Positions 6,369 through 23,330 of a DNA stretch of 64,000 nt are shown here, one piece after another; within the stretch, counting starts at the first letter, position 1; each line of letters starts with the position of its first letter. The notes below the pieces were generated by a model. It saw nothing but the letters and a program-made list of their open reading frames with translations, was not told where the DNA came from and did no database searches. The stretch spans positions 1 through 64,000 of the forward strand of contig JAVZEV010000001.1 in the NCBI GenBank assembly GCA_038873195.1, given 5' to 3'. Source of the DNA: Candidatus Bathyarchaeia archaeon (GTDB taxonomy: Archaea > Thermoproteota > Bathyarchaeia > Bathyarchaeales > Bathycorpusculaceae). A program made the position numbers and the translations under genes.

Positions 6369-6397
6369 CAGAAACTAAATGTTTGAAGGAAGGTCGA

Positions 6398-6757: not shown

Positions 6758-6782
6758 ATTAAGCAAAAGGAGGTGACTTAAA

Positions 6783-7307
6783 ATGTCAGAAAAAAGCGTA
6801 TTAATTGAGATTGATAAGCCTCATTTTACAGTCAGACTTTATGAGCGCTTTCTCGTAATAGACGTAAAAGGAACACTCAAAGATGAAATTGAGGAAGCCC
6901 TTGAAAATAAGCCGATTCTTAGAGAGACTTTGGGTCACATTCTTGGCATATTTGCGCCATTACATATACGTCTGAGTGATATAGACTCGGTAAACATGGA
7001 TAAGATGGGGACCGTCAGAATACATCTTCCTCATCACAGGGACGTAGTCATTTCACTTGAGCCAAAAGAAGCAAAGAGGCTCATAAACAAACTGAATGAA
7101 TTGATTCCAGAGGCAAAAGAGGATGAGCTAGAACGCATTATTAAAGAGCATAAACTTCAAAGGATTGTAGAAGAGGAGCAACTAATGGAAAAAGAAGAAG
7201 AAATCATGCCAATGGGCGGTGCACAAATGCCAATTTCTGAGCCTCCAGGCACGCGGGAGAAAATAAAGGAAGCAGAGAAGAAGATAATTGAAGAAGAACA
7301 ACGGTAA
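6783..7307 (+). CDS. Unknown protein with charged C-terminal helix
   Basis: A 174-residue protein preceded by a strong Shine-Dalgarno sequence (AGGAGGTGA, 5 bases before ATG). Residues 1-110 look like a compact alpha/beta domain with a strand-rich middle (GTVRIHLPHHRDVVISLEP). From about residue 110 it becomes Glu/Lys-rich and probably coiled, interrupted by a Met/Pro/Gly-rich segment (MPMGGAQMPISEPPG). No family is recognised. The strong ribosome site suggests a well translated, real gene. Confidence 0.7.
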   Translation: MSEKSVLIEIDKPHFTVRLYERFLVIDVKGTLKDEIEEALENKPILRETLGHILGIFAPLHIRLSDIDSVNMDKMGTVRIHLPHHRDVVISLEPKEAKRLINKLNELIPEAKEDELERIIKEHKLQRIVEEEQLMEKEEEIMPMGGAQMPISEPPGTREKIKEAEKKIIEEEQR

Positions 7308-7362
7308 CCTTGTTTTCTTGGTTAAATAGTGACTGGCGGGTGAATAAAAGAAGTGAAATTGA

Positions 7363-7638
7363 ATGAATAAAAAGGTAACAGTTACACTTGCAGGGATCTT
7401 TCTTGCAATAGCTTTAGCACTCCCATCTTATGTATTAATTGAAGCAACAACTGAAGATCTCAGACAATTCAACAAGTTCCTACAAGAAAATCAGCTTCCA
7501 CTTGATGATACTGATGTTGAGCAGTTCATATATGTTACTGGAACCAGACATCAAAGGCTCTTTGCAGTACTCTTAATATTTGAACTTGTCTTTACAATTC
7601 TCTTTGCCATTGTGTTATGGCTAAGCTTAAAGCCGTGA
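7363..7638 (+). CDS. Small membrane protein with two predicted helices
   Basis: A 91-residue protein. Residues 5-27 form a hydrophobic helix or signal anchor (TLAGIFLAIALALPSYVLI). A roughly 35-residue polar loop with many acidic residues follows, then a second helix at about 68-88 (LLIFELVFTILFAIVLWLSL). The polar loop probably faces the outside. No family is recognised. The T-rich run after the stop (7641-7672) may end transcription before the convergent phosphoglycerate mutase gene. Confidence 0.55.
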   Translation: MNKKVTVTLAGIFLAIALALPSYVLIEATTEDLRQFNKFLQENQLPLDDTDVEQFIYVTGTRHQRLFAVLLIFELVFTILFAIVLWLSLKP

Positions 7639-7732
7639 TTTTTCTATCCGCAATTTTTTCCGAGTATTTTTAGTTAATAAAACATCTGCATTATTTTAAT
7701 CTGGTAAGAATTACCAAGCTGTACGCAAATTT

Positions 7733-9046: not shown

Positions 9047-9055
9047 TGTACAGAG

Positions 9056-9520
9056 CTATTTCACTATTATCACTGGACAATGTGCTTCGTCTGCAACCCG
9101 GTCAGCGACGCTTCCTAAGAAAAACTCTTTAACTCTGCCTAATCCCCTATGCCCCATTACTATGAGGTCAAAGTTTTCTTCTTTGGCAGTTTCAACAATC
9201 TTGTCTGCCGGTCGACCTTCCTTTAGCACGGTTGAAATTTTTAAGTTAGGCTTCAGATCCTTAGCCCTTTTAAAAGCATTGGATAATATTTTTTCATGAA
9301 TATCTTTCACTTCTTTAGTAAACTCGTCCCAATTAGCAGGATAAGCAAACGGCTCTCCTGGATACTCGATCATTGGATAGATGACCCTCGGTACCTGAAA
9401 AACATTTATTATTGTAACGGTCGCAGAATATTTTTCCGCTATATCAAGTGCAAAATCCAACGCCTTATCAGCGTGTTCAGAGCCATCAATTGCCACCAAA
9501 ATTTTTTTAATCAAATCCAT
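9056..9520 (-). CDS. Universal stress protein, UspA family
   Basis: A 154-residue single-domain protein of the adenine-nucleotide alpha-hydrolase fold. It begins KKILVAIDGSEHADKALDFA and ends with the ATP-binding signature GHRGLGRVKEFFLGSVADRV, so it probably binds ATP. The family helps cells survive energy or oxidative stress. It sits 31 bp after a PfkB kinase gene and 9 bp before phosphoglycerate mutase on the same strand, so it is probably co-expressed with sugar metabolism. Confidence 0.93.
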   Translation of the reverse strand: MDLIKKILVAIDGSEHADKALDFALDIAEKYSATVTIINVFQVPRVIYPMIEYPGEPFAYPANWDEFTKEVKDIHEKILSNAFKRAKDLKPNLKISTVLKEGRPADKIVETAKEENFDLIVMGHRGLGRVKEFFLGSVADRVADEAHCPVIIVK

Positions 9521-9551
9521 CCCATCTATTCAATCTTTTCACTTTTCTAAC

Positions 9552-10478
9552 TCATAGATTTTGCGCATGCTCCTTTAAAAATCGTTCAACAGCTTTCCGA
9601 TTTGGCAAGGCTCTGGCTCCAACTCTTGTTATCTTTAAATTAGCTGTAGCATTAGCAAACTCAACAGAATCTTCCAAATTTTTACCCTCCAATTGAGCGG
9701 TGATAAAACCAGCTGAAAATGCGTCACCTGCTCCAGTAGTGTCAACAACCTTAACTGGATAAGCGGGAACGCTAAAACTTTTGGAGTGATCTATTGCAAA
9801 TACGCCATCTGGACCCCTTTTAATTATGACCATTTTTGGTCCAGATGCAAGAAGAGTCTTCGCTGCTTTTTCAAGTTCGATTACGCCTGTGAGCTCTTGG
9901 GATTCCTCTTGATTCAGAAGAATCTGGTCAACATGATGTAAGAGGGGCAACAGCCTTTTCAGTCCCATCCTCGACATGAGTCTTCCAGGATCAAAGGAAA
10001 CTGTAACATTTGCTTTCTTTGCTATTTTTGCGGCAGCTAGAGCCGTGTCAAATGAAAGCCCAGTAATATGAACATGTTCGCTTGATGAAATGTAGTCCTT
10101 ATCCAAATCAGATGGAAATAGCTTATCGCTTGCTCCAGTATATCCAAACATAATTACTTGCCCCTTCTTGTTAATGGCGATTACTGTTAACCCTGAACTT
10201 GTTGCAGTATCAACTTTAACATGAGCTACGTCAACTCCGTCATGCTCAAGTTCTTCTAAAAGCACTCGTCCAAACGTGTCAAAACCAATAGATCCTATAA
10301 ATCCGGATTTCACGCCAAGTCGTGATGCGCCCACAGCCACATTTGCAGCAGAACCTCCACCACCTAGACTTAACTTGTCAGTTTTTGCTTCCCCATCAGC
10401 TTCGGGAAATTCGTCCACAAAAATGCGAATATCCATCAAAACATGACCAATAGCAACAAGATCAGGCAAGACAAACAC
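9552..10478 (-). CDS. PfkB family carbohydrate or nucleoside kinase
   Basis: A 308-residue ribokinase-fold kinase. The first PfkB signature is visible as LSLGGGGSAANVAVGASRLG (about residue 36), and the catalytic second signature as DTTGAGDAFSAGF, which contains the catalytic Asp. The exact sugar cannot be read from the sequence; archaeal members include ribokinase, KDG kinase, nucleoside kinase and ADP-independent phosphofructokinase-like enzymes. GTG at 10478 is used; a TTG nine bases in has better spacing to GAGAGGAA. It follows the HPr-kinase-like gene by 12 bp. Confidence 0.92.
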   Translation of the reverse strand: MFVLPDLVAIGHVLMDIRIFVDEFPEADGEAKTDKLSLGGGGSAANVAVGASRLGVKSGFIGSIGFDTFGRVLLEELEHDGVDVAHVKVDTATSSGLTVIAINKKGQVIMFGYTGASDKLFPSDLDKDYISSSEHVHITGLSFDTALAAAKIAKKANVTVSFDPGRLMSRMGLKRLLPLLHHVDQILLNQEESQELTGVIELEKAAKTLLASGPKMVIIKRGPDGVFAIDHSKSFSVPAYPVKVVDTTGAGDAFSAGFITAQLEGKNLEDSVEFANATANLKITRVGARALPNRKAVERFLKEHAQNL

Positions 10479-10490
10479 TTCCTCTCTACA

Positions 10491-11453
10491 TCATAGTTTA
10501 CTGCTTACATTTAGTATTTCTCTAATTCTCTGTTGAGTCTCTCGTGGTGGCATAATGGTATTGACCATATAGACATTTGTCTGCTTAAAATATCTATGGA
10601 AGAAATCCTTTCTTAACTCAAGTTTTCTTTGATCTTTCACAAGTTGATGAGGGTTGCAGAAGTCGTTTGCAATCATGTACTGTAAGGCTTCATCCACACT
10701 TAATTTAGTGACAATTCTTTTGTCTGCCGGGTCTCTCTTCAACAAAATTATATCCCTCATTGTAGTTAGGGGTATAACGCCTCCGCTCCCGACAATCCAT
10801 CTGACGTTCACTACCGCTCTGCCTTCCTTATCGAAATGAGCCTTATCTACAAGCCGTTCATACTCGTTCCAAATTTTTCCAATGTCTGCCTCAATGTAAC
10901 AATTCTTTTCAGAACCAAACGCAAGTGGTTCTCTACTAGACAACCTCACGAAATACCAATCATCAGAAACAAGCCGCGCATCTTCAAGACGCAGCAGCCC
11001 CCAAGAATGTGTTGTTTTACCAGTTCCAGAAGGCGCTATCAGCGATACACCATGACCTCCGATGTCGATAGCGGCGCCATGAACAGAATAAATCCTATGT
11101 TCATCTTCCAAAACGTCTCCAGCTACAGCCAAAGCTATGCTTTTTATCCATCCATAATAGTCAACATTTACCAAAAAGGCCGTTTTGGTATAAGGATCAT
11201 ATTTTACCGTCATCTGTTGCCCAGGCTCTTCAAGGACTATTAGTCTTCCGTGAGACCTTACATCTTCGCTCATTGTGTAAAAGTTATCTTCCCATCGATC
11301 TTTTACATACTCTGCTTCTGTAAGCAGTTTTATACAACAACCATATATCTCTGCCTTTGCCGTGTATAAGAATCTCCCTTCATATTGTTGATAGAGTTCA
11401 TCCTTCTCTTCTGGACCGATTAATTGAATAGAATACCGTGTTCCAAATTCCAT
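10491..11453 (-). CDS. HPr kinase/phosphorylase-like P-loop protein
   Basis: A 320-residue protein whose central part resembles the C-terminal catalytic domain of HPr kinase. It has the Walker A motif APSGTGKTTHS near residue 138, followed by the nearby acidic motif LVSDDW that corresponds to the Mg-binding VADD of HprK. The N-terminal 120 residues and the C-terminal 80 residues are unlike bacterial HprK. No HPr or other PTS gene is seen, so the substrate is unlikely to be HPr; a small-molecule kinase is as likely. It is the first gene of the operon with the PfkB kinase, UspA and ApgM. Confidence 0.7.
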   Translation of the reverse strand: MEFGTRYSIQLIGPEEKDELYQQYEGRFLYTAKAEIYGCCIKLLTEAEYVKDRWEDNFYTMSEDVRSHGRLIVLEEPGQQMTVKYDPYTKTAFLVNVDYYGWIKSIALAVAGDVLEDEHRIYSVHGAAIDIGGHGVSLIAPSGTGKTTHSWGLLRLEDARLVSDDWYFVRLSSREPLAFGSEKNCYIEADIGKIWNEYERLVDKAHFDKEGRAVVNVRWIVGSGGVIPLTTMRDIILLKRDPADKRIVTKLSVDEALQYMIANDFCNPHQLVKDQRKLELRKDFFHRYFKQTNVYMVNTIMPPRETQQRIREILNVSSKL

Positions 11454-11572
11454 ACTGAAACCTGCCTTTCATTTTACATTAAATCATATAGTCACAAAAA
11501 GGTTTGCTGTTCTTTGTAAACGTTGGATAAAAATAATATACTGCACACACAATTTAGGATTGGTGATAAGTG

Positions 11573-11989
11573 ATGGATTGGCTTGTCTTAGCGATTCTGG
11601 ACGCATTTTTTGCTGCACTTGTGGCGATTTTTGCAAAGGTTGGGTTGCAAGGCGTTGATTCCAATGTTGCCACTGCAATAAGAACCATTGTTATGATGGT
11701 TTTTACGCTAGGCTTCGTAATAGCCATAGGTAAGGGTCCTCAACTAACGCAACTAACTAGTAAGGATGTGTTTTTCATAGTGCTTTCCGGAATAGCTGGC
11801 GCTATATCTTGGCTGCTCTATTTTGCCGCTTTAAAATTGACTGACGCTTCGAAAGTTGCGCCAATAGACAGAGCAAGCGTATTATTCGTGTTAGTCTTAT
11901 CCGCCCTTATTCTAGGCGAAAAAATAACACTTAAAACGGCGATGGCTGGGGTCCTCATTTTCATTGGGGTTCTATTGCTTGCAATTTAA
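11573..11989 (+). CDS. Half-size EamA/DMT transporter
   Basis: A 138-residue membrane protein with about five hydrophobic helices, equal to one EamA domain (normal DMT transporters have two). It ends with the familiar pattern LGEKITLKTAMAGVLIFIGV. Single-domain members normally work as dimers, sometimes in dual topology. The ATG at 11573 is chosen over an overlapping GTG at 11570, with GGTGAT just upstream. It diverges from the HPr-kinase-like operon. The substrate is unknown. Confidence 0.88.
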   Translation: MDWLVLAILDAFFAALVAIFAKVGLQGVDSNVATAIRTIVMMVFTLGFVIAIGKGPQLTQLTSKDVFFIVLSGIAGAISWLLYFAALKLTDASKVAPIDRASVLFVLVLSALILGEKITLKTAMAGVLIFIGVLLLAI

Positions 11990-12097
11990 AAAGCATAGAT
12001 GCAGAGCCATGTTTCGCAGCACACGTTAATGCCTTCACAGTCCCGCTGTTGATAAATTTTAACTACTTCAAACACTTACATTTGATGTGTGATCGAT

Positions 12098-12262
12098 ATG
12101 CCCGATGTTTCGCTAACTAGAGTTGAGTTCCTGCCAAAACGTGATTTAGACGAATTAGAGAAAAAGATCATCGACATTCTAAAAGACTTTGAGAGGAAAC
12201 ACAAAGGAATATTCATTTACGCCGAAGTAGAAATAATAAAAAAGGAGCAAGAAACAGAATAG
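12098..12262 (+). CDS. Small acidic/basic 54-residue protein
   Basis: A short frame from ATG 12098 to TAG 12260-12262. The translation begins MPDVSLTRVEFLPKRDL, continues with an amphipathic helix (ELEKKIIDILKDFERK), and ends with a strand-like IFIYAEVEIIKK. The balanced amphipathic layout and its own upstream AT-rich promoter-like stretch suggest a real gene. No family is recognised. It ends 38 bp before the convergent phosphohexomutase stop. Confidence 0.5.
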   Translation: MPDVSLTRVEFLPKRDLDELEKKIIDILKDFERKHKGIFIYAEVEIIKKEQETE

Positions 12263-12300
12263 ATTACTCATTTTACAAAAGACGTTTGTGAACCAGGGCA

Positions 12301-13734
12301 CTAAGCCTGTTTACTTAATGCTTTAGTAACAAGCTTTTTTCCTTCTTCCAGCATTTCTTCTAATTTCTCCCTGGTAGTTGACTCTCCGTATATCCTGAAA
12401 AGCGGTTCTGTCCCAGAAGGGCGAATAAGCAACCATCCATCATCTTTTAGCAGAAACTTTAATCCGTCCATTCTGTTAACATTTGATATCTCTATGCCAG
12501 CAATTCTATTTGGGATGTTGGATGAAAGCTTTTCCATAACTGTCTGTTTTAGTTCATCCGGGCATGATACGTCGCTACGTCCATTAAACAGTACCCCATA
12601 CTCTTTTTCTAAATCCTTAAGCAGTTCCGACAAACTTTTTCCCGTTTTGGCCACCATTTCCGCTATCTTAACGCCTGTAAAAATGCCATCCTTATCGGGA
12701 ATATGTCCTTTAAAACTTATGCCGCCGCTTTCTTCCCCTCCTAAAACTACATCTTTCTCACGTAAATATTGTCCCACATATTTGAACCCTACAGGCACCT
12801 CATACACTGGAAGCCTATGCTTTTCAGCTATTCGGTCGAGAAGATGAGTTGTAGCTACAGTCCGTACAACACCTCCCAACTTTCCACTTTTGACGGTGTA
12901 GTCAAATAGTAGCGGAAGAAGCTGATCTGCAGCAAAATAAGCGCCATTACTATCATATACCGCCAGACGATCAGCATCGCCATCAGTTGCCAACCCCAAG
13001 TCTGCCCCAAGGCTAATAACCATATTTTTAAGATCTGTTAGAAACTCTGGAAGCGGTTCGGGGCGTCCTCCGCCAAAGTTGGGATCAACTTCATTATGGA
13101 TAACTACAACTTTGCAACTAAGACTTCGCAAAATACGATCCAAATAGCCTCTTGCAGTTCCATACATTACATCAAAAACCACTTTGAGCCTCATTTTTCT
13201 GAAAGCTTCCAAATCTAACTGTTTTTTAACAAACCTTATGTAGGGCCCTGTCGGATCAATCCACTTCAATAACCCACGTTGCATCCCAGTCTCGATCGAG
13301 ATTTCCTTTATTTTACGTTCCCTAAAAATTCTGCTAATATTATTAGTGATCTCTTCAGTTGTTTCTGGCAATGCGGGACCCGCATATTCTGGGATGTACT
13401 TAATACCGTTCCATTCTGGCGGGTTATGCGAGGCTGTAATCATTATTGCGCCAGCAGCTTTCCTATGTAAAACCTCAAAGGCTGCGACTGGAGTGGGCAC
13501 ATCTCTTTTTGTGATGTATGTTGGGATGTCATTACCTAACATTATTTTGCATGCACTTTCTGCAAAGTGTCGTGACCATTTGCGCGTGTCATATCCAACT
13601 ATAATGCGTCTTTCCTTTAAGCCGTGAGACTGAACATAGTCAGCTATGCCTTGAGCCACGACTTTTACATTATCAAAAGTAAACTCTCTGCCTATGACGC
13701 CGCGCCAACCGTCTGTGCCGAAACTAATTTTCAC
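12301..13734 (-). CDS. Phosphoglucomutase/phosphomannomutase family phosphohexomutase
   Basis: Interconverts hexose 1- and 6-phosphates and supplies sugar-nucleotide and glycogen synthesis. All four domain signatures are visible: FGTDGWRGVIG at the N-terminus, the phosphoserine loop TASHNPPEWNGIKY, the Mg loop DGDADRLAVYD, and the phosphate-binding RPSGTEPLFRIYGES. The start chosen is GTG at 13734, which has GAGGGG eight bases upstream; a TTG at 13758 would add eight residues. It diverges from a glycosyltransferase, with a 135-bp shared promoter region. Glucose versus mannose preference is not decidable from sequence alone. Confidence 0.95.
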   Translation of the reverse strand: MKISFGTDGWRGVIGREFTFDNVKVVAQGIADYVQSHGLKERRIIVGYDTRKWSRHFAESACKIMLGNDIPTYITKRDVPTPVAAFEVLHRKAAGAIMITASHNPPEWNGIKYIPEYAGPALPETTEEITNNISRIFRERKIKEISIETGMQRGLLKWIDPTGPYIRFVKKQLDLEAFRKMRLKVVFDVMYGTARGYLDRILRSLSCKVVVIHNEVDPNFGGGRPEPLPEFLTDLKNMVISLGADLGLATDGDADRLAVYDSNGAYFAADQLLPLLFDYTVKSGKLGGVVRTVATTHLLDRIAEKHRLPVYEVPVGFKYVGQYLREKDVVLGGEESGGISFKGHIPDKDGIFTGVKIAEMVAKTGKSLSELLKDLEKEYGVLFNGRSDVSCPDELKQTVMEKLSSNIPNRIAGIEISNVNRMDGLKFLLKDDGWLLIRPSGTEPLFRIYGESTTREKLEEMLEEGKKLVTKALSKQA

Positions 13735-13869
13735 CGAAAACCCCTCAACGTATCCCAACTTTTATTAACCGTTCAATTCTGGTTTTTTCTACTGCACTAT
13801 AACTAAAGGGAAAAATATAAGCATCCTTTATCAAACTTATGATATTATAACTTGGAGTGGGAGAGTAAA

Positions 13870-15111
13870 ATGCGGATAGGGTTCTTCGTTTGGGAATACC
13901 CGCCTAAGCTTGTAGGCGGTTTAGGAACATACGCAGAATATATAACTCACGAGTTTGTTGAGTTAGGCCACGATGTTGCGGTTTTTACCCTTAATCCTGG
14001 AGATTTGAATACACGAGAGATTTTAAAGGGAGTGGAAGTTCACAGACCACTTATTGCTGACGCAAGCAACGTTTTTCCAATGTTTGTTGCGGATGACTTG
14101 AGAAAATGGGGAACAAACATCCGCTTCTTTAACGACATCTTCATTTACAACGTTCTAAGCGCAACCAAATTCATTAATGGGCTAATCAGAAAGGAAGGTT
14201 ATAAATTTGACATTGTATGTGTGCACGACTGGTTAAGCAGCATAGCTGGCTTAATAATCAAGAACGAAACCAAAATCCCAGTTGTTTTTCACGTTCACAG
14301 CACAGAATGGGGAAGAAGCGGCGGGCAAGGCTCAGAGGTTGTTTCACATCTCGAATGGGCAACTGCCCAAGCTGCTGACAAAATAATAACCGTCAGTCAT
14401 GCAATGAAGGACGATTTGGCACGTCACGGTTGGCCGCAACAAAAAATAAGCGTTGTATGGAATGGCGTGGACCCTATACGCTATAATCCACAAAACTGTA
14501 AACCTGAAGATGTTAAGAAGATCCGAGAGAAGTATAATATTCCAAACGATTGGAAAATGCTCCTCTTCCTTGGAAGATTAACGTGGGTAAAGGGTGTTAA
14601 AAATCTAATACAAGCAATGCCAACAGTTTTGAGAGATTATCCGCGCACGAAACTGGTGATCTTAGGCAAAGGCGAAGAAGAAAGGGATATAGCAGAAACA
14701 GCCACTAGACTCGGAATAAAAGATAACGTTATTTGTCGTTTTGATTTTGTCCCAGAAGAAGAACGAATTCTACATTATGCCGCTGCAGACGTCTGCGTCT
14801 TCCCGTCGGTATACGAACCATTCGGCATAGTAAGCCTAGAAGCCATGGCAATGGCAAAACCCGTAGTCGTCGGCGCTCATGGAGTAGTAGGCTTCAGAGA
14901 ACAAGTAGTTCCTTCAAGTCCAGAACAAAACGGCATCCACGTAAACGGCGAAGACCCAGCCGACATAGCATGGGGAATAAAAGAAACCCTTAAAGACCCA
15001 CAAAATGCCAAAACATGGGGAGAAAACGGACGAAAAAGAGTCTTACAATACTTTACATGGAGAAAAACAGCAGACCAAACACTTGGAATATATCAAACAC
15101 TCGTCCAGTAA
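13870..15111 (+). CDS. Glycosyltransferase family 4, glycogen/starch synthase-like
   Basis: A 413-residue GT-B fold transferase. The N-terminal acceptor domain starts MRIGFFVWEYPPKLVGGLGT, with the glycine-rich loop found in glycogen synthases. The C-terminal domain has LFLGRLTWVKGVKNL and the nucleotide-sugar-binding E-x7-E motif in YEPFGIVSLEAMA. Glycogen or another glucan, or a surface glycan, are all possible products. The ATG at 13870 follows GGAGTGGGAG; the frame is open 18 bases further upstream from a TTG. Its divergent partner, phosphohexomutase, would supply glucose 1-phosphate, which supports a polysaccharide role. Confidence 0.92.
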   Translation: MRIGFFVWEYPPKLVGGLGTYAEYITHEFVELGHDVAVFTLNPGDLNTREILKGVEVHRPLIADASNVFPMFVADDLRKWGTNIRFFNDIFIYNVLSATKFINGLIRKEGYKFDIVCVHDWLSSIAGLIIKNETKIPVVFHVHSTEWGRSGGQGSEVVSHLEWATAQAADKIITVSHAMKDDLARHGWPQQKISVVWNGVDPIRYNPQNCKPEDVKKIREKYNIPNDWKMLLFLGRLTWVKGVKNLIQAMPTVLRDYPRTKLVILGKGEEERDIAETATRLGIKDNVICRFDFVPEEERILHYAAADVCVFPSVYEPFGIVSLEAMAMAKPVVVGAHGVVGFREQVVPSSPEQNGIHVNGEDPADIAWGIKETLKDPQNAKTWGENGRKRVLQYFTWRKTADQTLGIYQTLVQ

Positions 15112-15182
15112 ATTTGTAATAAAAAAGTTAGAAAGGCTTCCTTTCCACTTAGAAGTAGTTGAAGTCAAGAGGTTTATTAAAA

Positions 15183-15818
15183 ATGAAAAATAAATCGAAC
15201 AATCAAAACAGTAGAAAATGGCTGAACAGAAATGTGGCGGCGATGGGTTTCACGAGCCTGTTCAGTGACGCAAGCCATGAGATGGCTACTTCTATTCTTG
15301 CTCAATTCTTAACAATCGAGTTGCATGGTTCAGCTGAAATCTTGGGCTTAATAGAGGGACTGGCGGACTTCTCCTCAAGTTTTATTAAGACATATTCTGG
15401 TTGGCTAAGCGATAAGTTGGGCAAGAGAAAGCCCCTTGCGACATTAGGCTATACGCTTACAGGAATATTTATATCTCTATTTGCCTTTGCATTTAACTTT
15501 CTTCAAGTACTGTTCTATAGAACAGTTGGATGGATTGGAAGAGGCATAAGAGAACCGCCGAGAGACGCCCTTCTAGCCGATTCAGTTGAGCCTGAAAGCT
15601 ACGGTCACGCGTTTGGTTTCCATCGCATGATGGACACGTTAGGCGCCATCATAGGCCCAAGCATAGCTTTTATTCTACTTCTTATCATCGGGTTTAGAAA
15701 CGTTTTTCTGGTTGCGTTTTTGCCAGGCATCTTAGCGATATTGGTGTTCGCGCTTTTCACGAGGGAAAAAGTTTGTAGGCAAAAGGTTGAAGGGGAGAGA
15801 AAATTGTTAGCGACATAA
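15183..15818 (+). CDS. MFS transporter, N-terminal part (frameshifted gene)
   Basis: This codes for the first six helices of a major facilitator transporter. It contains the loop 2-3 signature in GWLSDKLGKRKPLATLGY and GRGIREPPRDALLADSV. The frame runs off into a stop at 15816-15818 about five codons after it should have continued into the second half. The two halves are exactly contiguous in homologous layout, so this is one gene broken by a single-base change near 15800 (run of four A). Start ATG 15183 is preferred; a TTG at 15159 is also in frame. The substrate is unknown; the motif resembles MFS members near sugar genes. Confidence 0.8.
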   Translation: MKNKSNNQNSRKWLNRNVAAMGFTSLFSDASHEMATSILAQFLTIELHGSAEILGLIEGLADFSSSFIKTYSGWLSDKLGKRKPLATLGYTLTGIFISLFAFAFNFLQVLFYRTVGWIGRGIREPPRDALLADSVEPESYGHAFGFHRMMDTLGAIIGPSIAFILLLIIGFRNVFLVAFLPGILAILVFALFTREKVCRQKVEGERKLLAT

Positions 15819-15823
15819 GAGGG

Positions 15824-16381
15824 TTGCCAACTAAATTCAAACATTACCTGTTAGCTGTAGGCATATTTGGTGTCGGAAATTTCGCCAACACATTTCTAGT
15901 GTTAAGAGCTACAGAAGCTTTAACGCCAAGTTTCGGAGTTGTAATTGCCAGCAGCACCAGCGCATTCCTTTACGTGTTGCTTAATGTGGGCGCTGCATTT
16001 TTCGCCTACATATTCGGCGTATTGGGAGACAAAGTCAGCAAAAAGGATCTATTAGCATTAGGATACCTAAACTTCAGCATATACTGCATCGGCTTCATTT
16101 TCTCACCACCAAACATTTGGATCTACGCCTTCCTCTTCCTTTTAGCGGGCGTAGAAACAGGAGCCATAGACGCAACTGAAAGATCGTATGCCGCTGAACT
16201 GCTAAAAGGAAACAGAAGAGGAACAGGCTTCGTAATCCTCAGCACAATAAATGGCATAGGAGACTTCACATCAAGCATCACCGCCGGAATCTTATGGACA
16301 CTCATATCCGCCAGCGCATCTTTCACCTTCGGAGCGACACTCGCCCTAATGGCAACGGCGATCCTAATAATTCGCAAGTAA
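15824..16381 (+). CDS. MFS transporter, C-terminal part (frameshifted gene)
   Basis: This is the second six-helix half of the transporter begun at 15183, in the -1 frame. In this frame the coding signal extends back to about 15800 (KIVSDIRGLPTKFKHYLL), joining smoothly to the VEGER at the end of the first half. It includes a repeated loop signature, GVLGDKVSKKDLLALGY. A separate start at TTG 15824 is possible, but nothing suggests independent translation. The parts could be a recent pseudogene, an assembly error in a homopolymer, or less likely a -1 frameshift product. Confidence 0.72.
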   Translation: MPTKFKHYLLAVGIFGVGNFANTFLVLRATEALTPSFGVVIASSTSAFLYVLLNVGAAFFAYIFGVLGDKVSKKDLLALGYLNFSIYCIGFIFSPPNIWIYAFLFLLAGVETGAIDATERSYAAELLKGNRRGTGFVILSTINGIGDFTSSITAGILWTLISASASFTFGATLALMATAILIIRK

Positions 16382-16803
16382 GCAAAAGCAAAACACAATG
16401 ATTCTTTCACAAATGCCTTGCTAATTCTTCTGTTAGTAACGTTTAATTGAAGACTGGCGAAATCTTGGTTTTGATGTAGTGCGAAAAACCTACTATATAA
16501 GGCGCGGTTTGAAGTTTTTCAAAATTTTCTAATATTTATTTTTGGGTGTTGTCTGTTAACGTGAATTAACAGAACATCCGTTATCATGGGTTTTTGGGCG
16601 GGTGGAGGATTTTTCTAATAGGAAATACAAGAGAAATTGCGCGAGTGAAAATGCAATGAGAGTATAAATATATATACTATGGTGGAGGGGTGGGGGGTTT
16701 TCTATTTTCTAACAGTTTAACAGGAAACACCATGTCCTTGTCCAAAAAGCCTAGAATGGTGAGTTCCTTCTTTATTTGCATTAGTTTTCCAATGAAGTCT
16801 GTC
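16382..16803. other. Non-coding left border of the integrated element
   Basis: No gene is seen in these 422 bases. The stretch holds several YTAACAG motifs: inverted CTGTTAG at 16430-16436, inverted CTGTTAA at 16553-16559, then TTAACAG at 16566-16572 and 16717-16723, and CTAACAG at 16709-16715. It also has an AT-rich near-palindrome at 16661-16678 (AGTATA...TATACT) and a G-rich run at 16681-16699. Such iteron-like spacing could mark a replication origin or recombinase arm sites. That use is a guess. Confidence 0.4.
16552..16573. repeat. Inverted repeat TCTGTTAA-N6-TTAACAGA
   Basis: Perfect 8-base arms separated by six bases in the left border of the element. It could be an operator, origin iteron or recombinase binding site. 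No hairpin with a T tract follows, so a terminator is unlikely. Confidence 0.6.
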
Positions 16804-17070
16804 TTATTGATGTGTTAGTAAGCTTATTTTGTCCTTCTTGAGGAAGATGAGGCCCCTTACGTTCATACAGAACATAGCTTTGGCTTCGGTAGGAGTGGGA
16901 TAGGCTTGTGGGCCTTCAAGCTCTGCGAGGCGCCTCTTCAACAACTCGTTAACTTCCTCGCTCATCGATTTCCCCTGCCCATCCAATACAGCCTTCAACC
17001 GCATATACACTTCACGTTCAATGCTGAACGATTTGACAACTACCTCTGCGTATTTTCTGGGTCTCGGCAT
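16804..17070 (-). CDS. Ribbon-helix-helix (CopG-like) DNA-binding protein
   Basis: An 88-residue protein. A basic N-terminus (MPRPRKYAEV) leads to a strand with SFSIEREVYMRLKAVL and a second helix SMSEEVNELLKRRLAEL, the classic ribbon-helix-helix layout in residues 10-55. The C-terminal 30 residues are not part of that domain. It is probably a repressor or copy-control protein of the integrated element. It is the leftmost gene of the element, transcribed outward, with a 170-bp gap from the next gene. Confidence 0.75.
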   Translation of the reverse strand: MPRPRKYAEVVVKSFSIEREVYMRLKAVLDGQGKSMSEEVNELLKRRLAELEGPQAYPTPTEAKAMFCMNVRGLIFLKKDKISLLTHQ

Positions 17071-17239
17071 AAAGGTTTCCCCGTAAGAAAAATAATAAAT
17101 AACCAGAGAATTCGAATATACGCCTCTAAAGCCCTAATGTATCATAATAAAAAATGTGCTTGTGTCTTCAGCGTTTGCAGTTTTTGGCAAGTTAGGAAAA
17201 TATCTTAATAAAAAACAGCTTAGCCCTTTTGCATTCTAG

Positions 17240-17950
17240 TTAGGTTCCTTGTTTAGTTGGCTTTTTCGCAGCTTTCCTAACGGGCTTATGGATTTTTTCT
17301 TTGATTCCTTGCCAATGGGCCAATGTTGCTCTTAATCCTTCAATTTCTTCGTTAATTTGTCCGGCAAAGGCTTCTTTCAGTTCGGGTTCGCTGTTTAAGA
17401 AGGCTATTACTTCATCAGTCGGAAAATATCCTTCTTCCCAAATTAATGGTTCTCGGATGGTTGGCACACCTAACCAAGCGATGAACTCTTCCAAGAACAA
17501 CATTTCTGTATTTTTGTATGCCCGTAGGCAAAGCGCATCAACGATGCGGCTTAACAGGGCTAGGGCATAGCCCTCAGGCACATAACGCAAGAAAGCTTTC
17601 CACTTATTGAATAATAGCGCGTTTATCTTTTCCGAAATTTCTTTCGTGATTTCCGGCTTGCGTTTGTTAAGGAAACAATCCTTGAAGTAGTTGTTGAGGT
17701 AGACTATCAAGCCGTAAGGCGTTAACTCATAAATCCTAGTTTGTAGTCCTGTGCGAAATTTGCCTTCCTTTTTGACCCGTATAAGATTCGCCTTTAACGC
17801 CTGGTCAATTTTCTTATGTACCGTGGCGTGGGGCATTTCTGTTCTCTTTTCAATTTGGTATGGTGTTGCCTCACTGACCTCTGTTAAAACGCGTAGTATC
17901 CTTTGTATAAGTTGGTCTTCTGTGGTTTTTTCCAGAAATTCTTCGTTCAT
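17240..17950 (-). CDS. Helix-turn-helix regulator of the integrated element
   Basis: A 236-residue protein. Residues 10-75 form a winged helix of the MarR/ArsR type (QRILRVLTEVSEATPYQIEK, then HATVHKKIDQALKANLIRV). The rest is helical and of unknown fold, rich in Trp and Leu, with a basic Lys-rich tail (KPVRKAAKKPTKQGT). The start is only 5 bp from a perfect TGTCACG/CGTGACA palindrome, and it diverges from the replication operon. It probably regulates that promoter and itself. Confidence 0.7.
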   Translation of the reverse strand: MNEEFLEKTTEDQLIQRILRVLTEVSEATPYQIEKRTEMPHATVHKKIDQALKANLIRVKKEGKFRTGLQTRIYELTPYGLIVYLNNYFKDCFLNKRKPEITKEISEKINALLFNKWKAFLRYVPEGYALALLSRIVDALCLRAYKNTEMLFLEEFIAWLGVPTIREPLIWEEGYFPTDEVIAFLNSEPELKEAFAGQINEEIEGLRATLAHWQGIKEKIHKPVRKAAKKPTKQGT

Positions 17951-17954
17951 GATA

Positions 17955-17981
17955 TGTCACGTTTTTTGATTTATCGTGACA
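17955..17981. promoter_or_regulatory. Operator-like palindrome between divergent element operons
   Basis: TGTCACG at 17955-17961 and CGTGACA at 17975-17981 are perfect 7-base arms with a 13-base spacer. A further GTGACA half-site lies at 18037-18042, just before the ATG at 18046, and a TGACA at 18021-18025. TATA-like TATATAAAAG lies at 17990-17999 between them. The layout suits a repressor covering both divergent promoters. Candidate binders are the HTH protein to the left and the ribbon-helix-helix protein to the right. Confidence 0.6.
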
Positions 17982-18045
17982 AAAAACCTATATAAAAGGT
18001 TTGTCCTATGTTACTAAGAATGACATATAAAGAGGTGTGACATAA

Positions 18046-18228
18046 ATGGAGGAAAAAGGAAAACCAACCGCAATATACCTGCCTAACGGCTTGAACCAAA
18101 TGATTGAGTCAACGCGGGCTAAGCTTGGCATGAACCGCAGCCGATTCATCCAATACTGCATTCTGAAAACTTTGCAAGAGTTGAGCGTGATGTCCGCAAA
18201 CGTGCATGACAAACAGGCAACAAGATAG
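18046..18228 (+). CDS. Small ribbon-helix-helix protein
   Basis: A 60-residue protein. The pattern PTAIYLPNGLNQMIESTRAK followed by GMNRSRFIQYCILKTLQEL is a ribbon-helix-helix domain: a strand, a helix, a turn with NRS, and a second helix. AGAGGTG precedes the ATG. It is the first gene of the element's rightward operon and is likely its autoregulator or copy-number repressor, with GTGACA half-sites just upstream. It is 11 bp from the next gene. Confidence 0.8.
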   Translation: MEEKGKPTAIYLPNGLNQMIESTRAKLGMNRSRFIQYCILKTLQELSVMSANVHDKQATR

Positions 18229-18239
18229 GAGCTGAGAAA

Positions 18240-18533
18240 ATGGCTAGTGACGAGTTGGCGCTTGAAGCACTACTTGAGTTCATCAACGCTGTTGAGGCTG
18301 GAATAGTGGCTGTTAAGCAACGTGTCAAAGAAACTAGGCAGGTCTACAATATTGAGGCTATAAGGTGGGAGAAGGCGCAGGGAGCAAGCGGCGAATATGA
18401 GCGTTCTGAAGATGTAAACAGCTCAGACTTCAAAGCCTTGTTAAGAGATGTGCAGGCGCATGGCGGCAAGATGTCTGTTGGCGACTATTTTGTCTGGTGC
18501 TTCAGAAATGGTGCAGTTTTAGGTCGTAAATGA
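18240..18533 (+). CDS. Small element protein of unknown function
   Basis: A 97-residue protein with no recognised family. The N-terminal half is a long predicted helix (LALEALLEFINAVEAGIVAV, then KQRVKETRQVYN). The C-terminal half has SDFKALLRDVQAHGGKMSVG and ends in WCFRNGAVLGRK. A clear AGGAG lies 10 bases before the ATG. The position between the RHH gene and the primase suggests a replication accessory protein, but the sequence itself gives no function. Confidence 0.65.
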   Translation: MASDELALEALLEFINAVEAGIVAVKQRVKETRQVYNIEAIRWEKAQGASGEYERSEDVNSSDFKALLRDVQAHGGKMSVGDYFVWCFRNGAVLGRK

Positions 18534-18556
18534 GGAAAAGCAGAGGCTGAAACTCT

Positions 18557-19564
18557 ATGGCTGAACAGCAGCTCGTCGATGCTATGTTTACCAAGTTCGT
18601 TAGTCGCGAAGAAGTCTATGCAGTTCAGCTGCCCAAAGGCGGGTATATGAAGATAGAGCAGCCTTTGGCAAGCAAAATTGTTCAACGACATCTAGAAGGC
18701 GATATAACTGTTGGCGTTTACCAACTCAACACGCAGAGCATGGTTAAGTGGCTTTGTTTTGATTTAGACCCAGAAAGGCTAGAAGATCCTAAAGGGTCAG
18801 CGCAAAAGTTATTGCAAGTGTGCTTTGAGAGAAAAATGGAAGAGGACAAGGTTGAAAGACCGAGGATTTGGCAGCATAGCGTTTTGCTTGAGGCAAGCCG
18901 CTTTCCAGATCCAAGCTATCACATTTGGATATTTTTCGCCATCCCGGTGCCTGCTAAAGTGGCACGTTGGCTTGGATTGCGCATTCTTGAGCTTGCGAGT
19001 CTAAGCCCTAAACAAGTCGAAGTTTTTCCCAAGCAGAGTGAAATAACAAGAGAGCAGCCATACGGCAACCTGGTTAAACTGCCCTTTGGTTTTCACCAAG
19101 TCGAGCGTAAATGGAGCAGGGCGCTTGACTTTGAAAGTTTCGAGCCGTTACCGAGCCATGTTTTGCTTGAAAAGTGGGGTTTAGGCCTTTCAGAGGCAGA
19201 TGTAGCGAAAATCTTGAATTTCGAGGATAAGAGGCATGTTCAGGCAACTTTTGATTTGCCCCGGGGCAATAAACCTTTAAGATGCAGGGAAGAGGAGAAG
19301 GTTGTCAAGTTTTTGGTCAAATATTGGCGGAAAGGTCAACGGAACCAGCTTGAGTTAGCCTTTTTGGGCTACTGCCTTAAACGTGGTGTAAGCCACGAAT
19401 CTGCAAGGCGGATTATAGCGCAAGTTTGTGACCTAACAAGTGATGAAGAAAAGGTGTCAAGGCTTAGGCTTGTGGGCTATCACTATCAGAATAGGCGGAA
19501 TCTTGGCTGTAGGCTGGTTGCTGTTTCTGGTTTGCGCGAAATTGTGAGGGAGGCTTTAAAGTGA
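18557..19564 (+). CDS. Archaeo-eukaryotic primase (AEP/prim-pol type) of the integrated element
   Basis: A 335-residue protein resembling the primase domain of TOTE-type and plasmid prim-pol proteins. Motif I is WLCFDLDPERLEDP, whose Asp-x-Asp pair binds metal. Motif II is the SYHIWIFFAIPVP segment with its conserved His. A downstream VEVFPKQSEITREQPYGNLV and KLPFGFHQ match the nucleotide-binding region. The last 100 residues look like a helical PriCT-like extension. It would prime, and perhaps copy, the element's DNA. The stop overlaps the start of the helicase-like gene by 4 bases (GTGA), indicating coupled translation. Confidence 0.78.
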   Translation: MAEQQLVDAMFTKFVSREEVYAVQLPKGGYMKIEQPLASKIVQRHLEGDITVGVYQLNTQSMVKWLCFDLDPERLEDPKGSAQKLLQVCFERKMEEDKVERPRIWQHSVLLEASRFPDPSYHIWIFFAIPVPAKVARWLGLRILELASLSPKQVEVFPKQSEITREQPYGNLVKLPFGFHQVERKWSRALDFESFEPLPSHVLLEKWGLGLSEADVAKILNFEDKRHVQATFDLPRGNKPLRCREEEKVVKFLVKYWRKGQRNQLELAFLGYCLKRGVSHESARRIIAQVCDLTSDEEKVSRLRLVGYHYQNRRNLGCRLVAVSGLREIVREALK

Positions 19565-21339
19565 GCATAGGCGAAGAGCTTGAAAAACTCGAAGCAGAAG
19601 AAAGGGCTAAGAAACTTAGAGAGGCGCCTCATATTCTGCATCCGGCTGGTGGTATAACTGAAAAGTTTGTCTATGAACCTGTGGCTGTAGGCAAATATGT
19701 TTACAAAACAGTAGAAGGCAAAAAAGGGTTTGCACCGTTAAAGATCGAGTTTGAAGATGAAGAGGAGCAAAGAAAGCCTCATTGGTTTATTGAGGTTGAA
19801 GGTGAGCAATATTATTTCAAAGAGAAGCCGCCTCGAGAGTTTCTTTTCGGTTTTCCAGTTTATGAGAAAGTTCAGAAGTGGGTTAGAGGCGAAAAACAAA
19901 GCTTCTCCATGGAACAACTTTGGAAACTCAACGGAGTCTATCTGAGAACGTTTCTTGATTTTCCAAGACCCTTCGAGTTCAGCGTAACTCAGCTTTTTAT
20001 CCAGCAAACATGGCTTGTTGAGCTTTTGCCAGTTGTGTTTTATCTTGGCGTTAAGGGCGAGTTCGGCGGAGGCAAAACTGTTACTGGCGAAACCATTGTG
20101 CTAGTCTGCAAGCATGGCTATTTGACTGGCAATCTTAGCCCGCCATTTGTGGCTAGGGCAGTTCAAGAACATAAGATAACTTTGATGGTTGATGAACTTG
20201 ACGCTGTTGCAGGCACAAAGGACTCTGACCTCAACTGTATTTTTAGACAAGGATATAGACGAGGCTTAAAATATAGTAGAGTTAACCCGGAAAAGCTTGA
20301 AACAGAAAGCTACATGGTTTTTGGACCCAAGCTTTTCACTGTTCACTCTGAAATAGAAGAAGCCCTACAGACAAGAACAGTTCCAATTCATGTGAGAGAG
20401 ACAAGCAATCCTCAATATCCAATCGTGAACTTGGATAAGGCAAGCTTTGCAGAATACGTTTACACGGAGAACTTCCTTTGGTATTTGGACAATGCTTTAA
20501 CCTTTAAAAGAAACGATTTGCACGCTATAAATGGCTCTCAACTTGACATACTTGACACACTTGACCTAAAAATCAGCGACTGCAATATTGACATTCAAGC
20601 CGAAAAACTGAGGCAATTATTGTTTGAGAATAAGAAAACTCTCTTGTTAGAAGGTCAAGTTAATCAAGTTAGTCAAGTCAGCGGTAGAAACACAGAGCTA
20701 ATGTTTCTATGCTTTGCCCTATCGAACCTCTTGAAAATTCAATGTGACGACGACATTGTTAAGACCTTCCAGCAAAAGCTGTTAGAAGAAAGTGAAAGAA
20801 CAGAAATTGGCTTAATTGGCGTTTTGAGACAAGTTTTAACAGATTTATGGAACGAGAAGAAAGAAAATAAGGATTACATTACTGAAGATGGACTCGTTAA
20901 AATCAGCAACAAGGAAATCTATGACAAATACAATCAAGTTTTGAAAAAGGAGTATGGGCAAGGAGTTTCTCCGGCCAAATTTAAAGAGTTCATGTTAGAG
21001 TTTGGCTTTTCAGATGCTTTAAACAGAACAAAGCTTGAAGTGCCCGTTCCTGGGGATCCAGAGAAAAAATCCAGGCTATGCAACATTTTCACAGAACGTG
21101 TCTTGAGAAAGCTTGGCATTGAAGAGGAGTGGCAAGACGAGAAGTCTCTGCAGGAAATTCTTGTTAAAGCGAGAGAGTGGTGTGAACAAAACAAGGATGA
21201 CGAAAACATCGTTGACTTGCTCAGCTTGACAGAGTTTCTCTCAGGCTTAACTGAGCAGCCAACCCGAATCATCGACATCATGAAGAACGACGGAGTTCTT
21301 TTCGAAGTCAACCAGGTTGGCAAGCTAGGAGTGAAGTGA
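19561..21339 (+). CDS. P-loop ATPase, probable replicative helicase of the element
   Basis: A 592-residue protein with a central P-loop NTPase domain. Walker A is GEFGGGKTVTGE (K172) and Walker B is ITLMVDELDAVAG (D211, E212). About 160 N-terminal residues of unknown fold precede it, and a helical C-terminal half of about 250 residues follows, which may hold a winged helix (NKEIYDKYNQVLKKEYGQG). The layout resembles plasmid or phage helicases that partner a primase, but the exact family is not recognised. GTG start at 19561 overlaps the primase stop. The next gene overlaps in the same way. Confidence 0.7.
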   Translation: MSIGEELEKLEAEERAKKLREAPHILHPAGGITEKFVYEPVAVGKYVYKTVEGKKGFAPLKIEFEDEEEQRKPHWFIEVEGEQYYFKEKPPREFLFGFPVYEKVQKWVRGEKQSFSMEQLWKLNGVYLRTFLDFPRPFEFSVTQLFIQQTWLVELLPVVFYLGVKGEFGGGKTVTGETIVLVCKHGYLTGNLSPPFVARAVQEHKITLMVDELDAVAGTKDSDLNCIFRQGYRRGLKYSRVNPEKLETESYMVFGPKLFTVHSEIEEALQTRTVPIHVRETSNPQYPIVNLDKASFAEYVYTENFLWYLDNALTFKRNDLHAINGSQLDILDTLDLKISDCNIDIQAEKLRQLLFENKKTLLLEGQVNQVSQVSGRNTELMFLCFALSNLLKIQCDDDIVKTFQQKLLEESERTEIGLIGVLRQVLTDLWNEKKENKDYITEDGLVKISNKEIYDKYNQVLKKEYGQGVSPAKFKEFMLEFGFSDALNRTKLEVPVPGDPEKKSRLCNIFTERVLRKLGIEEEWQDEKSLQEILVKAREWCEQNKDDENIVDLLSLTEFLSGLTEQPTRIIDIMKNDGVLFEVNQVGKLGVK

Positions 21340-21563
21340 AAACTTTGGATCGCAATTGGCACGATTACCGCTATAAAAAGCAAGCGAATGATAAAGGCAA
21401 AATTAAAGACCTGCCATTGGTTGATCCGCTTCCATCTCTTAAAGAAAAACTGCTTGCGCGTAAATGCCGAGAGCTTGCAAGGCAGCTATTGAAACGTGAA
21501 CGAAGGAAGAAGCGCAAGGATGCAAGCTTCAAACTTGTTATCGTAGAGGAAACTAGAAGGTAA
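21336..21563 (+). CDS. Small basic element protein
   Basis: A 75-residue protein, very rich in Lys and Arg, especially at the C-terminus (ARQLLKRERRKKRKDASFK). It starts with GTG inside the stop of the helicase-like gene (4-base overlap) and ends 4 bases before the integrase ATG, so it belongs to the same operon. It may bind DNA or RNA, for example as a recombination accessory factor. No family is recognised. Confidence 0.6.
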   Translation: MKTLDRNWHDYRYKKQANDKGKIKDLPLVDPLPSLKEKLLARKCRELARQLLKRERRKKRKDASFKLVIVEETRR

Positions 21564-21567
21564 TCTT

Positions 21568-22875
21568 ATGGCTGGGGCTGGAGAGAAGACTTGCGCTTCA
21601 GAAAGCGCAGAGCAGAACAGTGTTATTGACCTCGGACATGATTTTCAACAGAACCAAACGCCGAAACAGCCCCAGCTCAAATGCCCACAATGCAGCTCCA
21701 CAAGCCTTTACAAAGATGGACTAAGATATCTCAGCAATGGCAGTAGCGTTCAGCGTTGGCTTTGCAGAAACTGCGGCTACAGATTCACAGACCCCAACCA
21801 AAAAGCCAAAACCGAATGGAAGAATCCTCCATCCGGCTTAAATTCGCCTTCTGCCTTATACTATTCCTGCCAAGGGAACAATGACCCGAATGGGAGAGTG
21901 CCCACCGCTAGAAAGGCGGCGTTAACCTTGGCCACAGTAGAAAACAATGCAAAAAGCGGGCAAGCGGGAGCCACAGAGCAGACGGTTGATATCCATGGAA
22001 AAATCGTTGACTACATCTGGCATCTGAAAAAGAAGGGATTGAAAGAAATAACTGTAAGGCATTACGGTGAAATGCTTACTCGGCTGCTCAAAGATGGCGT
22101 TAACCTGATGCAACCTGAAGAAGTTAAAAACTTCCTAGCTAGGAAAGACAAGTGGAGTGAGAGGACTAAAGCGATAGTTGTTGCAATCTACAACGACTTC
22201 TTAAATTTTCTCAGGCTTCCTTGGGAGTCCCCAAAATATAAGCCTGCCAAGAGATTGCCTTTCATACCTGCAGAAGAAGAATTAGACCAAATGATTGCGC
22301 GAGCTGGAAAAAGATTAGCACCGCTTCTTCAGATTCTCAAGGAAACTGGCATGCGTCTTGGAGAGGCCCTAAGGCTCAAATGGACGGATGTGGACTTTCA
22401 GCGCAAAATAGTCAACATTACACCCGAAAAGGGGAGCAAACCAAGGATACTTCCACTTTCCGAAAAAGTTCTCGGAATGCTCCAAACATTACCAAAGAAA
22501 TCCGAATATATCTTTGCGGCAACTCGTTGGAGTATGACCTCCAACTTCTATATGCAAAGGAAAACTTTGGCAAGAAAGCTAAACAACCCAAGAATCTTGA
22601 AGATAAGCTTGCATACTTTCAGACACTGGAAGGCTACAATGGAATATCACAAAACCAAGGATTTAATCTATGTACAGCAACTGCTAGGCCATGTCGACAT
22701 AAAATCTACAATGGTATACATAACAATTGAGCAAGGTTTATTCAGCAACACATCGAATGACGAGTTTCATGTGAAAACTGCTAGAACAGTGGAAGAAGCG
22801 TGCAAATTGGCAGAGGTTGGATTCGAATACTTTGACACTATAGACGGCATTCACATATATCGGAGAAGAAAATAG
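21568..22875 (+). CDS. Tyrosine recombinase (integrase) with N-terminal zinc ribbon
   Basis: A 435-residue site-specific recombinase. Residues 39-69 form a zinc ribbon (C39, C42, C66, C69) of the type found in IS1-like transposases and unusual for integrases. A SAM-like core-binding domain follows at about 148-210 (IVDYIWHLKKKGLKEITVRH). The catalytic domain shows R263 in TGMRLGEALRLKW, H349 and R352 in HTFRH, H375 in LLGHVDI, and nucleophile Y384 in TMVYITIE. All catalytic residues are present, so the enzyme is probably active. It is the last gene of the element, beside an inverted repeat that may mark the attachment site. Confidence 0.92.
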   Translation: MAGAGEKTCASESAEQNSVIDLGHDFQQNQTPKQPQLKCPQCSSTSLYKDGLRYLSNGSSVQRWLCRNCGYRFTDPNQKAKTEWKNPPSGLNSPSALYYSCQGNNDPNGRVPTARKAALTLATVENNAKSGQAGATEQTVDIHGKIVDYIWHLKKKGLKEITVRHYGEMLTRLLKDGVNLMQPEEVKNFLARKDKWSERTKAIVVAIYNDFLNFLRLPWESPKYKPAKRLPFIPAEEELDQMIARAGKRLAPLLQILKETGMRLGEALRLKWTDVDFQRKIVNITPEKGSKPRILPLSEKVLGMLQTLPKKSEYIFAATRWSMTSNFYMQRKTLARKLNNPRILKISLHTFRHWKATMEYHKTKDLIYVQQLLGHVDIKSTMVYITIEQGLFSNTSNDEFHVKTARTVEEACKLAEVGFEYFDTIDGIHIYRRRK

Positions 22876-22888
22876 CGCACTAAAAACT

Positions 22889-22932
22889 AACCTATATTAT
22901 CCTATAATAAGTCATAAATCGTAATATAGGTT
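22889..22932. repeat. Perfect 11-base inverted repeat after the integrase
   Basis: AACCTATATTA at 22889-22899 and TAATATAGGTT at 22922-22932 are exact reverse complements separated by 22 bases. It starts 13 bases after the integrase stop. It could be the recombination core with two inverted binding arms (attachment site), a transcription end, or an operator for the gene at 22995. No matching copy was found by eye at the left border. Confidence 0.6.
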
Positions 22933-22994
22933 AAATCTTTTAAAGGGTATAAGCTATAATCAGAAAGCAGAAACCATAAGAAGGCTGAACAAAA

Positions 22995-23330
22995 ATGGTG
23001 AAGAGTGGAGAAGAGGAGAAGATTAAAAAAATTCTAACAGACCAAAAATACGCAGCAATCAAAGCCATGCTCGAAAAAGACCACGCCATCGACTGCATAT
23101 TCCTACTCTACATGAACCGCGGAAAATGGAAAGAAGCCAAAGAATTCATGCGCAACAACGGCTTAACACTCAGCGACGGCACATTCCGCGCCAGAATGAT
23201 AGAAATTGAAGACTTAGGCTTAGCAAAAGGCGAACGCATCGACCCATTAAAGAAATACTATATAAAAACTGAGCTTGGCGAAAAAATTGCAAAGTTACTG
23301 TTAGAATTTTTTGACAAACTGGAACTTTAA
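22995..23330 (+). CDS. Small winged-helix-like protein of unknown role
   Basis: A 111-residue protein. Residues 40-105 look like a winged helix: WKEAKEFMRNNGLTLSDGTF as the recognition area, then IEDLGLAKGERIDPLKKYYI as a wing. A promoter-like AAATCTTTTAAAGG lies just upstream. It could be the last gene of the integrated element or the first of the pilin cluster. Its codon style (C-ending codons) is closer to the pilin cluster. Confidence 0.6.
   Translation: MVKSGEEEKIKKILTDQKYAAIKAMLEKDHAIDCIFLLYMNRGKWKEAKEFMRNNGLTLSDGTFRARMIEIEDLGLAKGERIDPLKKYYIKTELGEKIAKLLLEFFDKLEL

Follow-up and report, generated by a model that had tools for sequence, protein, structure and literature searches.

An exact 21-bp direct repeat bounds an integrative island whose right end lies in a 64,000-nucleotide stretch of a Candidatus Bathyarchaeia archaeon genome (assembly GCA_038873195.1, contig JAVZEV010000001.1, positions 1 to 64,000; hereafter the window), and a tyrosine recombinase gene stands beside the right-hand copy of the repeat, attR. 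The operon that ends with this gene probably supplies the replication and integration functions of an island of ~50 kb, whose right end it forms and which carries a CRISPR immune system. A preliminary description of this DNA had proposed a minimal plasmid-like integrated element at 16382-22932. That the element is integrated and has its own replication and integration genes is borne out by the attachment (att) repeats and by an empty site in a relative. It is not minimal: the second att copy lies on another contig, at least 48.7 kb away, and the operon forms one end of a cargo-bearing island. The proposed right edge is close to the true end (core at 22903-22923), while the left edge is merely the end of a major facilitator superfamily (MFS) transporter gene.

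Boundaries of the insertion and the empty site

The window contig (C1) was compared with relatives, among which G001 is the only genome of the same genus (G and L numbers denote relatives' genomes and loci). The match to G001 starts exactly at base 22903 and runs rightwards, at 93.8% over 4.3 kb, with none leftwards; in nearly all relatives the match starts between 22850 and 22920, upstream of a gene for a conserved protein of 111 amino acids (aa). The left flank in G001, which encodes ribosomal proteins, a 113-aa protein and an acetyltransferase, is absent from the window and lies reversed on a second contig of the same genome (C2), where positions 40000-25825 correspond to it with 92.8% identity across 14.2 kb, as far as G001 position 15701. 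In G001 the matches to the left and right flanks have 21 bases in common, TATAATAAGTCATAAATCGTA, a sequence that its empty site contains once. The two core copies of the island-bearing genome represent the attL and attR of a single insertion, and G001 has an empty site of the kind that the preliminary description had suggested seeking in relatives. The 113-aa gene also adjoins the site in G016 and G045.

No further core copy with up to two mismatches was found in the genome; the next-best candidate has three mismatches in 19, a level also reached by a reversed control pattern. Inside the island the best core-like sequence has 7 of 21 mismatches, which is chance level, and no core copy lies near 16.4 kb. 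An 11-bp inverted repeat surrounds the attR core, one arm coming from the element and one from the chromosome (Table 1), an arrangement that may be read as the one expected for a recombinase site. On the circular form, attP is predicted to read ...AACCTATATTATCC-TATAATAAGTCATAAATCGTA-TCAAGGAATAGATTGG... As noted before, neither edge is marked by a tRNA gene, the sole tRNA of the window lying at 36149.

Size and contents of the island

Read in reverse, C2 ends within the N-terminal part of a plasma-membrane-type H+-ATPase (5ksd residues 4-290), and the window opens with the C-terminal part of such a protein; its middle, about 350 aa or ~1 kb, is missing between the contigs. Because att copies flank both halves and the contig ends are parts of one H+-ATPase type, the insertion comprises at least 48.7 kb (25.8 + 22.9) plus a gap of about 1 kb, therefore ~50 kb. 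Against G001, the first 16.8 kb of the window and the first 20 kb of C2 gave scattered stretches at 73-75% and short weaker matches, compared with 93-95% for the flanks. Since island DNA lacks a flank-level match in G001, the whole stretch, not the operon alone, is foreign at genus level. Neither the ATPase nor the primase of the operon was found in G001.

Counting the cargo in the window (Table 1), the island encodes three P-type ATPases in all; an ABC exporter, a GHMP kinase and a JAB protein are also among its products. Adjoining attL are genes for Cas6, a Cas8b-like protein, Cas7b, Cas5b, Cas3, Cas4 and Cas1, a complete-looking type I-B system. A CRISPR array of 16 repeats (C2:13.5-14.7 kb; L115/L159) includes two identical adjacent 46-nt spacers; compared with all sequence searched, its spacers gave self-matches and short weak matches only, and no protospacer. 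Within the island proteins scanned with Pfam, a set that did not include all small open reading frames (ORFs) or the ~1 kb left unsequenced, no capsid, terminase, relaxase, VirB4 or VirD4 family was matched, in line with the earlier remark that capsid and conjugation genes are not seen; the PHROGs scan covered the replication/integration module. The MFS transporter is encoded by two ORFs, 15159-15818 and 15824-16381, in different frames. Together the two cover the whole length of the family (404 aa), and the gene may have been split by a frameshift or by an error in sequencing.

Table 1 Features of the island, its att sites and its target gene (positions on C1 unless another contig is given)
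Feature	Position	Strand	Basis or remark
Island, right-hand part	C1 1-22902		att repeats; no same-level match in G001
Island, left-hand part	C2:1-25824, read in reverse		att repeats; no same-level match in G001
attR core, TATAATAAGTCATAAATCGTA	C1:22903-22923		exact repeat of attL core
attL core, TATAATAAGTCATAAATCGTA	C2:25825-25845	-	exact repeat of attR core
Element-side arm, AACCTATATTA	22889-22899		inverted repeat of 22922-22932
Chromosomal arm, TAATATAGGTT	22922-22932		part of promoter-region motif conserved among relatives
Target gene, conserved 111-aa protein	22995-23330	+	in 28/41 relatives; integration site is its upstream region
Ribbon-helix-helix (RHH) protein, operon gene 1	18046-18228	+	ORF list; weak CopG/RHH matches
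97-aa protein, function unknown	18240-18533	+	kept beside primase or ATPase genes of related elements
Archaeo-eukaryotic primase/polymerase (AEP-TOTE; CRISPR-associated Prim-Pol-like)	18557-19564	+	family matches and motifs
P-loop ATPase, putative helicase partner of primase in replication	19561-21339	+	motifs; primase fusion in relatives
Basic protein, 75 aa	21336-21563	+	ORF list; no family match
Tyrosine recombinase, XerA-like catalytic domain and N-terminal zinc ribbon	21568-22875	+	family matches
RHH/VapB-like small protein	16804-17070	-	weak Pfam match; common to two related loci
Winged-helix (MarR-like) regulator, divergent from operon	17240-17950	-	Pfam MarR_2 E=9e-4, under cut-off
Divergent control region	17951-18045		TATA-like stretch; four TGACA/TGTCA sites
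H+-ATPase (plasma-membrane-type, P-type), C-terminal part	2-571	+	matches 5ksd residues 664-828
Cargo	622-16381		Pfam: P-type ATPase, M50/CBS protease, MarC, TrmB regulator, phosphoglycerate mutase, Usp, PfkB kinase, phosphomannomutase, glycosyltransferase, MFS transporter

The replication and integration module

ORFs and family matches confirmed the operon as previously described: its six genes lie on the plus strand between 18046 and 22875, and three of their junctions are overlaps or gaps of 4 bases (19561/19564, 21336/21339 and 21563/21568). The recombinase matched Phage_integrase (Pfam, 6.2e-25), the structure 5hxy (1.6e-22) and NCBIfam recomb_XerA_Arch (5.6e-31), and its N-terminal zinc ribbon of IS1/IS1595 type scored above the curated cut-off (8.2e-08). 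The primase matched Pfam AEP-TOTE (3.9e-24), structures of CRISPR-associated Prim-Pol (7nqd, 7nqf; 1.6e-19) and PADLOC PrimPol (2.5e-22), and its sequence contains the AEP catalytic motifs FDLD, YHIWIFF and KLPFGFH.

The ATPase gave no family match, and no library returned a superfamily 3 helicase (S3H) match for it. Its Walker A (GEFGGGKT), Walker B (MVDE) and FGPK motifs and an Arg-finger-like position are aligned across nine homologues. We take it to resemble DUF3631-type primase-associated ATPases, a likeness confirmed by no library. Because ATPase domains of this type are fused to an AEP-TOTE primase in L049 and to a Prim-Pol/PriCT primase in L052, primase and ATPase appear to be functionally linked. 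Homologues of the 97-aa protein occur at 33-54% in L012, L046, L047, L048, L053 and L054, and the 75-aa basic protein is a possible accessory or directionality factor.

To the left of the operon stand two minus-strand genes (16804-17070 and 17240-17950) that had gone unmentioned. The RHH/VapB-like product of the former is 58% identical to L014:5372-5551 and 69% to L051:7611-7426. In the control region between the winged-helix gene and the operon, TGACA/TGTCA occurs four times, against 0.15 expected.

The target site and related elements

The insertion target is the promoter region of the 111-aa gene, a non-tRNA hotspot. The motif TCGTAATATAGGTTAAATCTTTTAA and its variants are deeply conserved upstream of this gene, at 22908-22945 in the window and across the order in relatives (L061-L087). 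This conservation exceeds the needs of a basal promoter, and the region is likely an operator or RNA element. The L044 element occupies the same 111-aa gene with an integrase of a different, well-supported clade, and right-end fossils, consisting of the integrase stop region and the arm, mark the site in G005, G006, G009 and G019 (z-scores of 5.3-9.9 against shuffles), the fossil-bearing relatives spanning at least four genera. Use by an integrase of another clade and fossils in other genera together argue that the site is a recurrent hotspot. Integrase-tail fossils that seemed plausible by eye, one in G001 and one beside attL on its host side, were rejected (z-scores of -0.5 and 0.8 against shuffles).

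The same gene set recurs elsewhere, as the preliminary description had proposed to check: L042 (Candidatus Bathyarchaeota archaeon A05DMB-3, at tRNA-Val) and L044 have primase, ATPase and integrase genes together, and L043 has the first two. Few genomes of the class, 4/257, contain the full-length ATPase type. Since the L044 ATPase is 65% identical to that of the window and its integrase belongs to another clade, integrase and replication genes appear to be shuffled between elements.

Four further integrases of the island's type are encoded in the same genome. Most of the integrases examined there and in relatives adjoin a tRNA gene (Glu, Val, Asn, Pro, Met, Tyr, Phe, Cys, Ser), and direct repeats of 22-29 bp accompany related integrases at distances of 8.2, 10.8, 12.1, 13.5 and 33.3 kb. 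The last of these belongs to a second large element of the same genome (G000:C1, 935.6 kb; L152-L154), with a related integrase beside tRNA-Glu and a 24-bp repeat 33.3 kb off. In G008 (L129, C9 at ~197.9-198.1 kb; L125, C4 at ~420 kb), a single tRNA gene serves two elements whose integrases are convergent. At tRNA-Pro, one repeat matches the 5' end of the tRNA and the other its 3' end, so that two integrases use opposite ends of one tRNA. Viral IMG/VR contigs of 14-44 kb (L160-L166) encode integrases 40-48% identical to that of the island, several of them at the very contig edge; the integrase family probably also serves proviruses.

Alternative explanations

The alternative that survives best, unlikely though it seems to us, is a composite origin: a small hotspot element would have grown by stepwise capture of CRISPR-Cas and metabolic genes, or merged with older elements that have degraded att sites, so that a single circle may never have carried all 50 kb. 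Most relatives of measured size span 8-14 kb, the fossils in other genera attest to re-use of the site, and the combination of a 65% identical ATPase with an other-clade integrase in L044 indicates that replication genes and integrase differ in history. Against such growth, there are just two core copies, and they are identical, as a single recent integration would leave them; the relative beside tRNA-Glu, moreover, spans 33 kb.

Several points also weigh against a ~50-kb island with a working replication module. Its halves lie on different contigs, their join being inferred and the gap size estimated; the cargo looks chromosomal and could have come in steps; neither a circular form nor excision was seen, and the 21-bp core was not found in viral contigs. 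The helicase activity of the ATPase is putative, drawn from its motifs and the primase fusions, and the structure model built from three sequences is poor (mean predicted local distance difference test score, pLDDT, of 48.7).

An improbable origin is a decayed provirus or integrative conjugative element that has lost its structural or transfer genes. The occurrence of integrases of this family in the IMG/VR contigs would suit it, as would the conversions between conjugative and cryptic elements reported in Thaumarchaeota (PMC6563490). Opposed to these are the lack of any viral or conjugative family among the island proteins scanned with Pfam (PHROGs on the module), and the failure to find the primase and ATPase in viral contigs, or the ATPase in phage or plasmid records.

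We regard as very improbable a minimal 6.5-kb plasmid-like element, at about 16.4-22.9 kb, beside unrelated chromosomal DNA. Its appeal lies in the compactness of the replication and integration genes and in related elements as small as 8.2-13.5 kb. An exact second core copy lies on C2, however, whereas near 16.4 kb there is nothing beyond chance level, and DNA left of 16.4 kb also lacks genus-level identity in G001. This boundary was dropped, direct repeats around 16.4 and 22.9 kb not exceeding 11 exact bases.

That the att copies lie on different contigs might suggest an assembly artefact or genome rearrangement in place of an insertion, but this is scarcely credible, as each of the two att-host junctions lies within a contig and shows the same exact core, one continuous G001 stretch is collinear with both flanks up to the repeat, and the island DNA is nowhere else in G001 at flank-level identity.

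Proposed mechanism and significance

For the island as an insertion of ~50 kb, we propose that the zinc-ribbon recombinase acted on a circular form, joining its attP to an attB located upstream of the 111-aa gene, and that the insertion would have rebuilt the promoter of this gene on its right side. In the circular state, the AEP primase-polymerase would make primers and the P-loop ATPase would act as its helicase, and the RHH and winged-helix proteins may repress the divergent control region. Because recognised transfer or virion genes are lacking, movement between cells would depend on another element or on uptake.

From an archaeal class of which few members are in culture, the island provides a large integrative element with precise bounds, for which the empty site has been mapped and the circular junction predicted. 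It indicates that CRISPR-Cas and metabolic genes can arrive by a single insertion at a promoter-region hotspot shared with another integrase lineage, and cautions that a small "element" read from one contig may be the tip of a much larger one. As a tentative generalization, which we think doubtful, a family of zinc-ribbon recombinases might drive integrative islands in Bathyarchaeota-related archaea, having switched from tRNA genes to a deeply conserved promoter region. It would shuttle whole CRISPR-Cas systems together with metabolic cargo in single units of ~50 kb, and its zinc ribbon would determine which target is chosen.

Comparison with known systems

The nearest counterparts are the cryptic integrated elements (CIE) of Thaumarchaeota, which combine an integrase with their own replication genes and RHH or winged helix-turn-helix regulators and lack virion and conjugation genes (Krupovic et al. 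2019, PMC6563490). Some CIE encode primpol and helicase as separate genes; they span 2.6-98 kb, target tRNA genes or intergenic sites, and include two examples with complete type I-B CRISPR-Cas, and the median att length over all element classes is 17 bp (PMC6563490). The island has an integrase, att direct repeats with an empty site, and no virion or conjugation genes in the scanned proteins, and it fits the CIE class in gene content, in size, in att length, and in its intergenic target and CRISPR cargo. Classification as an integrative conjugative element was rejected, no VirB4/VirD4 or relaxase being matched in the Pfam-scanned proteins, as was provirus, no capsid or terminase gene being matched (Pfam; PHROGs on the module). 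Nor is the island a casposon, since its Cas1 belongs to a type I-B locus with an array and its boundaries are direct repeats of tyrosine-recombinase type. Viruses and proviruses of Bathyarchaeia (PMC10848311) and regions in Bathy-6 metagenome-assembled genomes (PMC11697101) are likewise integrase-bearing insertions in the same archaeal class, but carry capsid or other virion genes, of which none was found here.

The primase shares its AEP domain with CRISPR-associated Prim-Pol (7nqd, 7nqf) and with the primases of TOTE systems. Unlike in those systems, its gene shares an operon with those of a P-loop ATPase and an integrase, at a distance of tens of kb from the cas genes, which makes a role in replication likelier than one in spacer acquisition. 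The integrase resembles XerA-like archaeal recombinases in its catalytic domain (5hxy, recomb_XerA_Arch), but its score of 108 bits is half of the 220-bit equivalog cut-off; it has an N-terminal IS1/IS1595-type zinc ribbon and, judging from its position, would act at element-specific att sites and not at dif. A literature search, which did not cover subscription papers and is weak evidence, found no description of a zinc-ribbon archaeal integrase. Compared with CIE, the host is of Bathyarchaeota type, the primase is AEP-TOTE, the ATPase is not recognised as S3H by any library, and the target is a deeply conserved, repeatedly used promoter region. The zinc ribbon of its integrase, the pairing of an AEP-TOTE primase with an ATPase of unknown family, and the promoter hotspot thus set the island apart.

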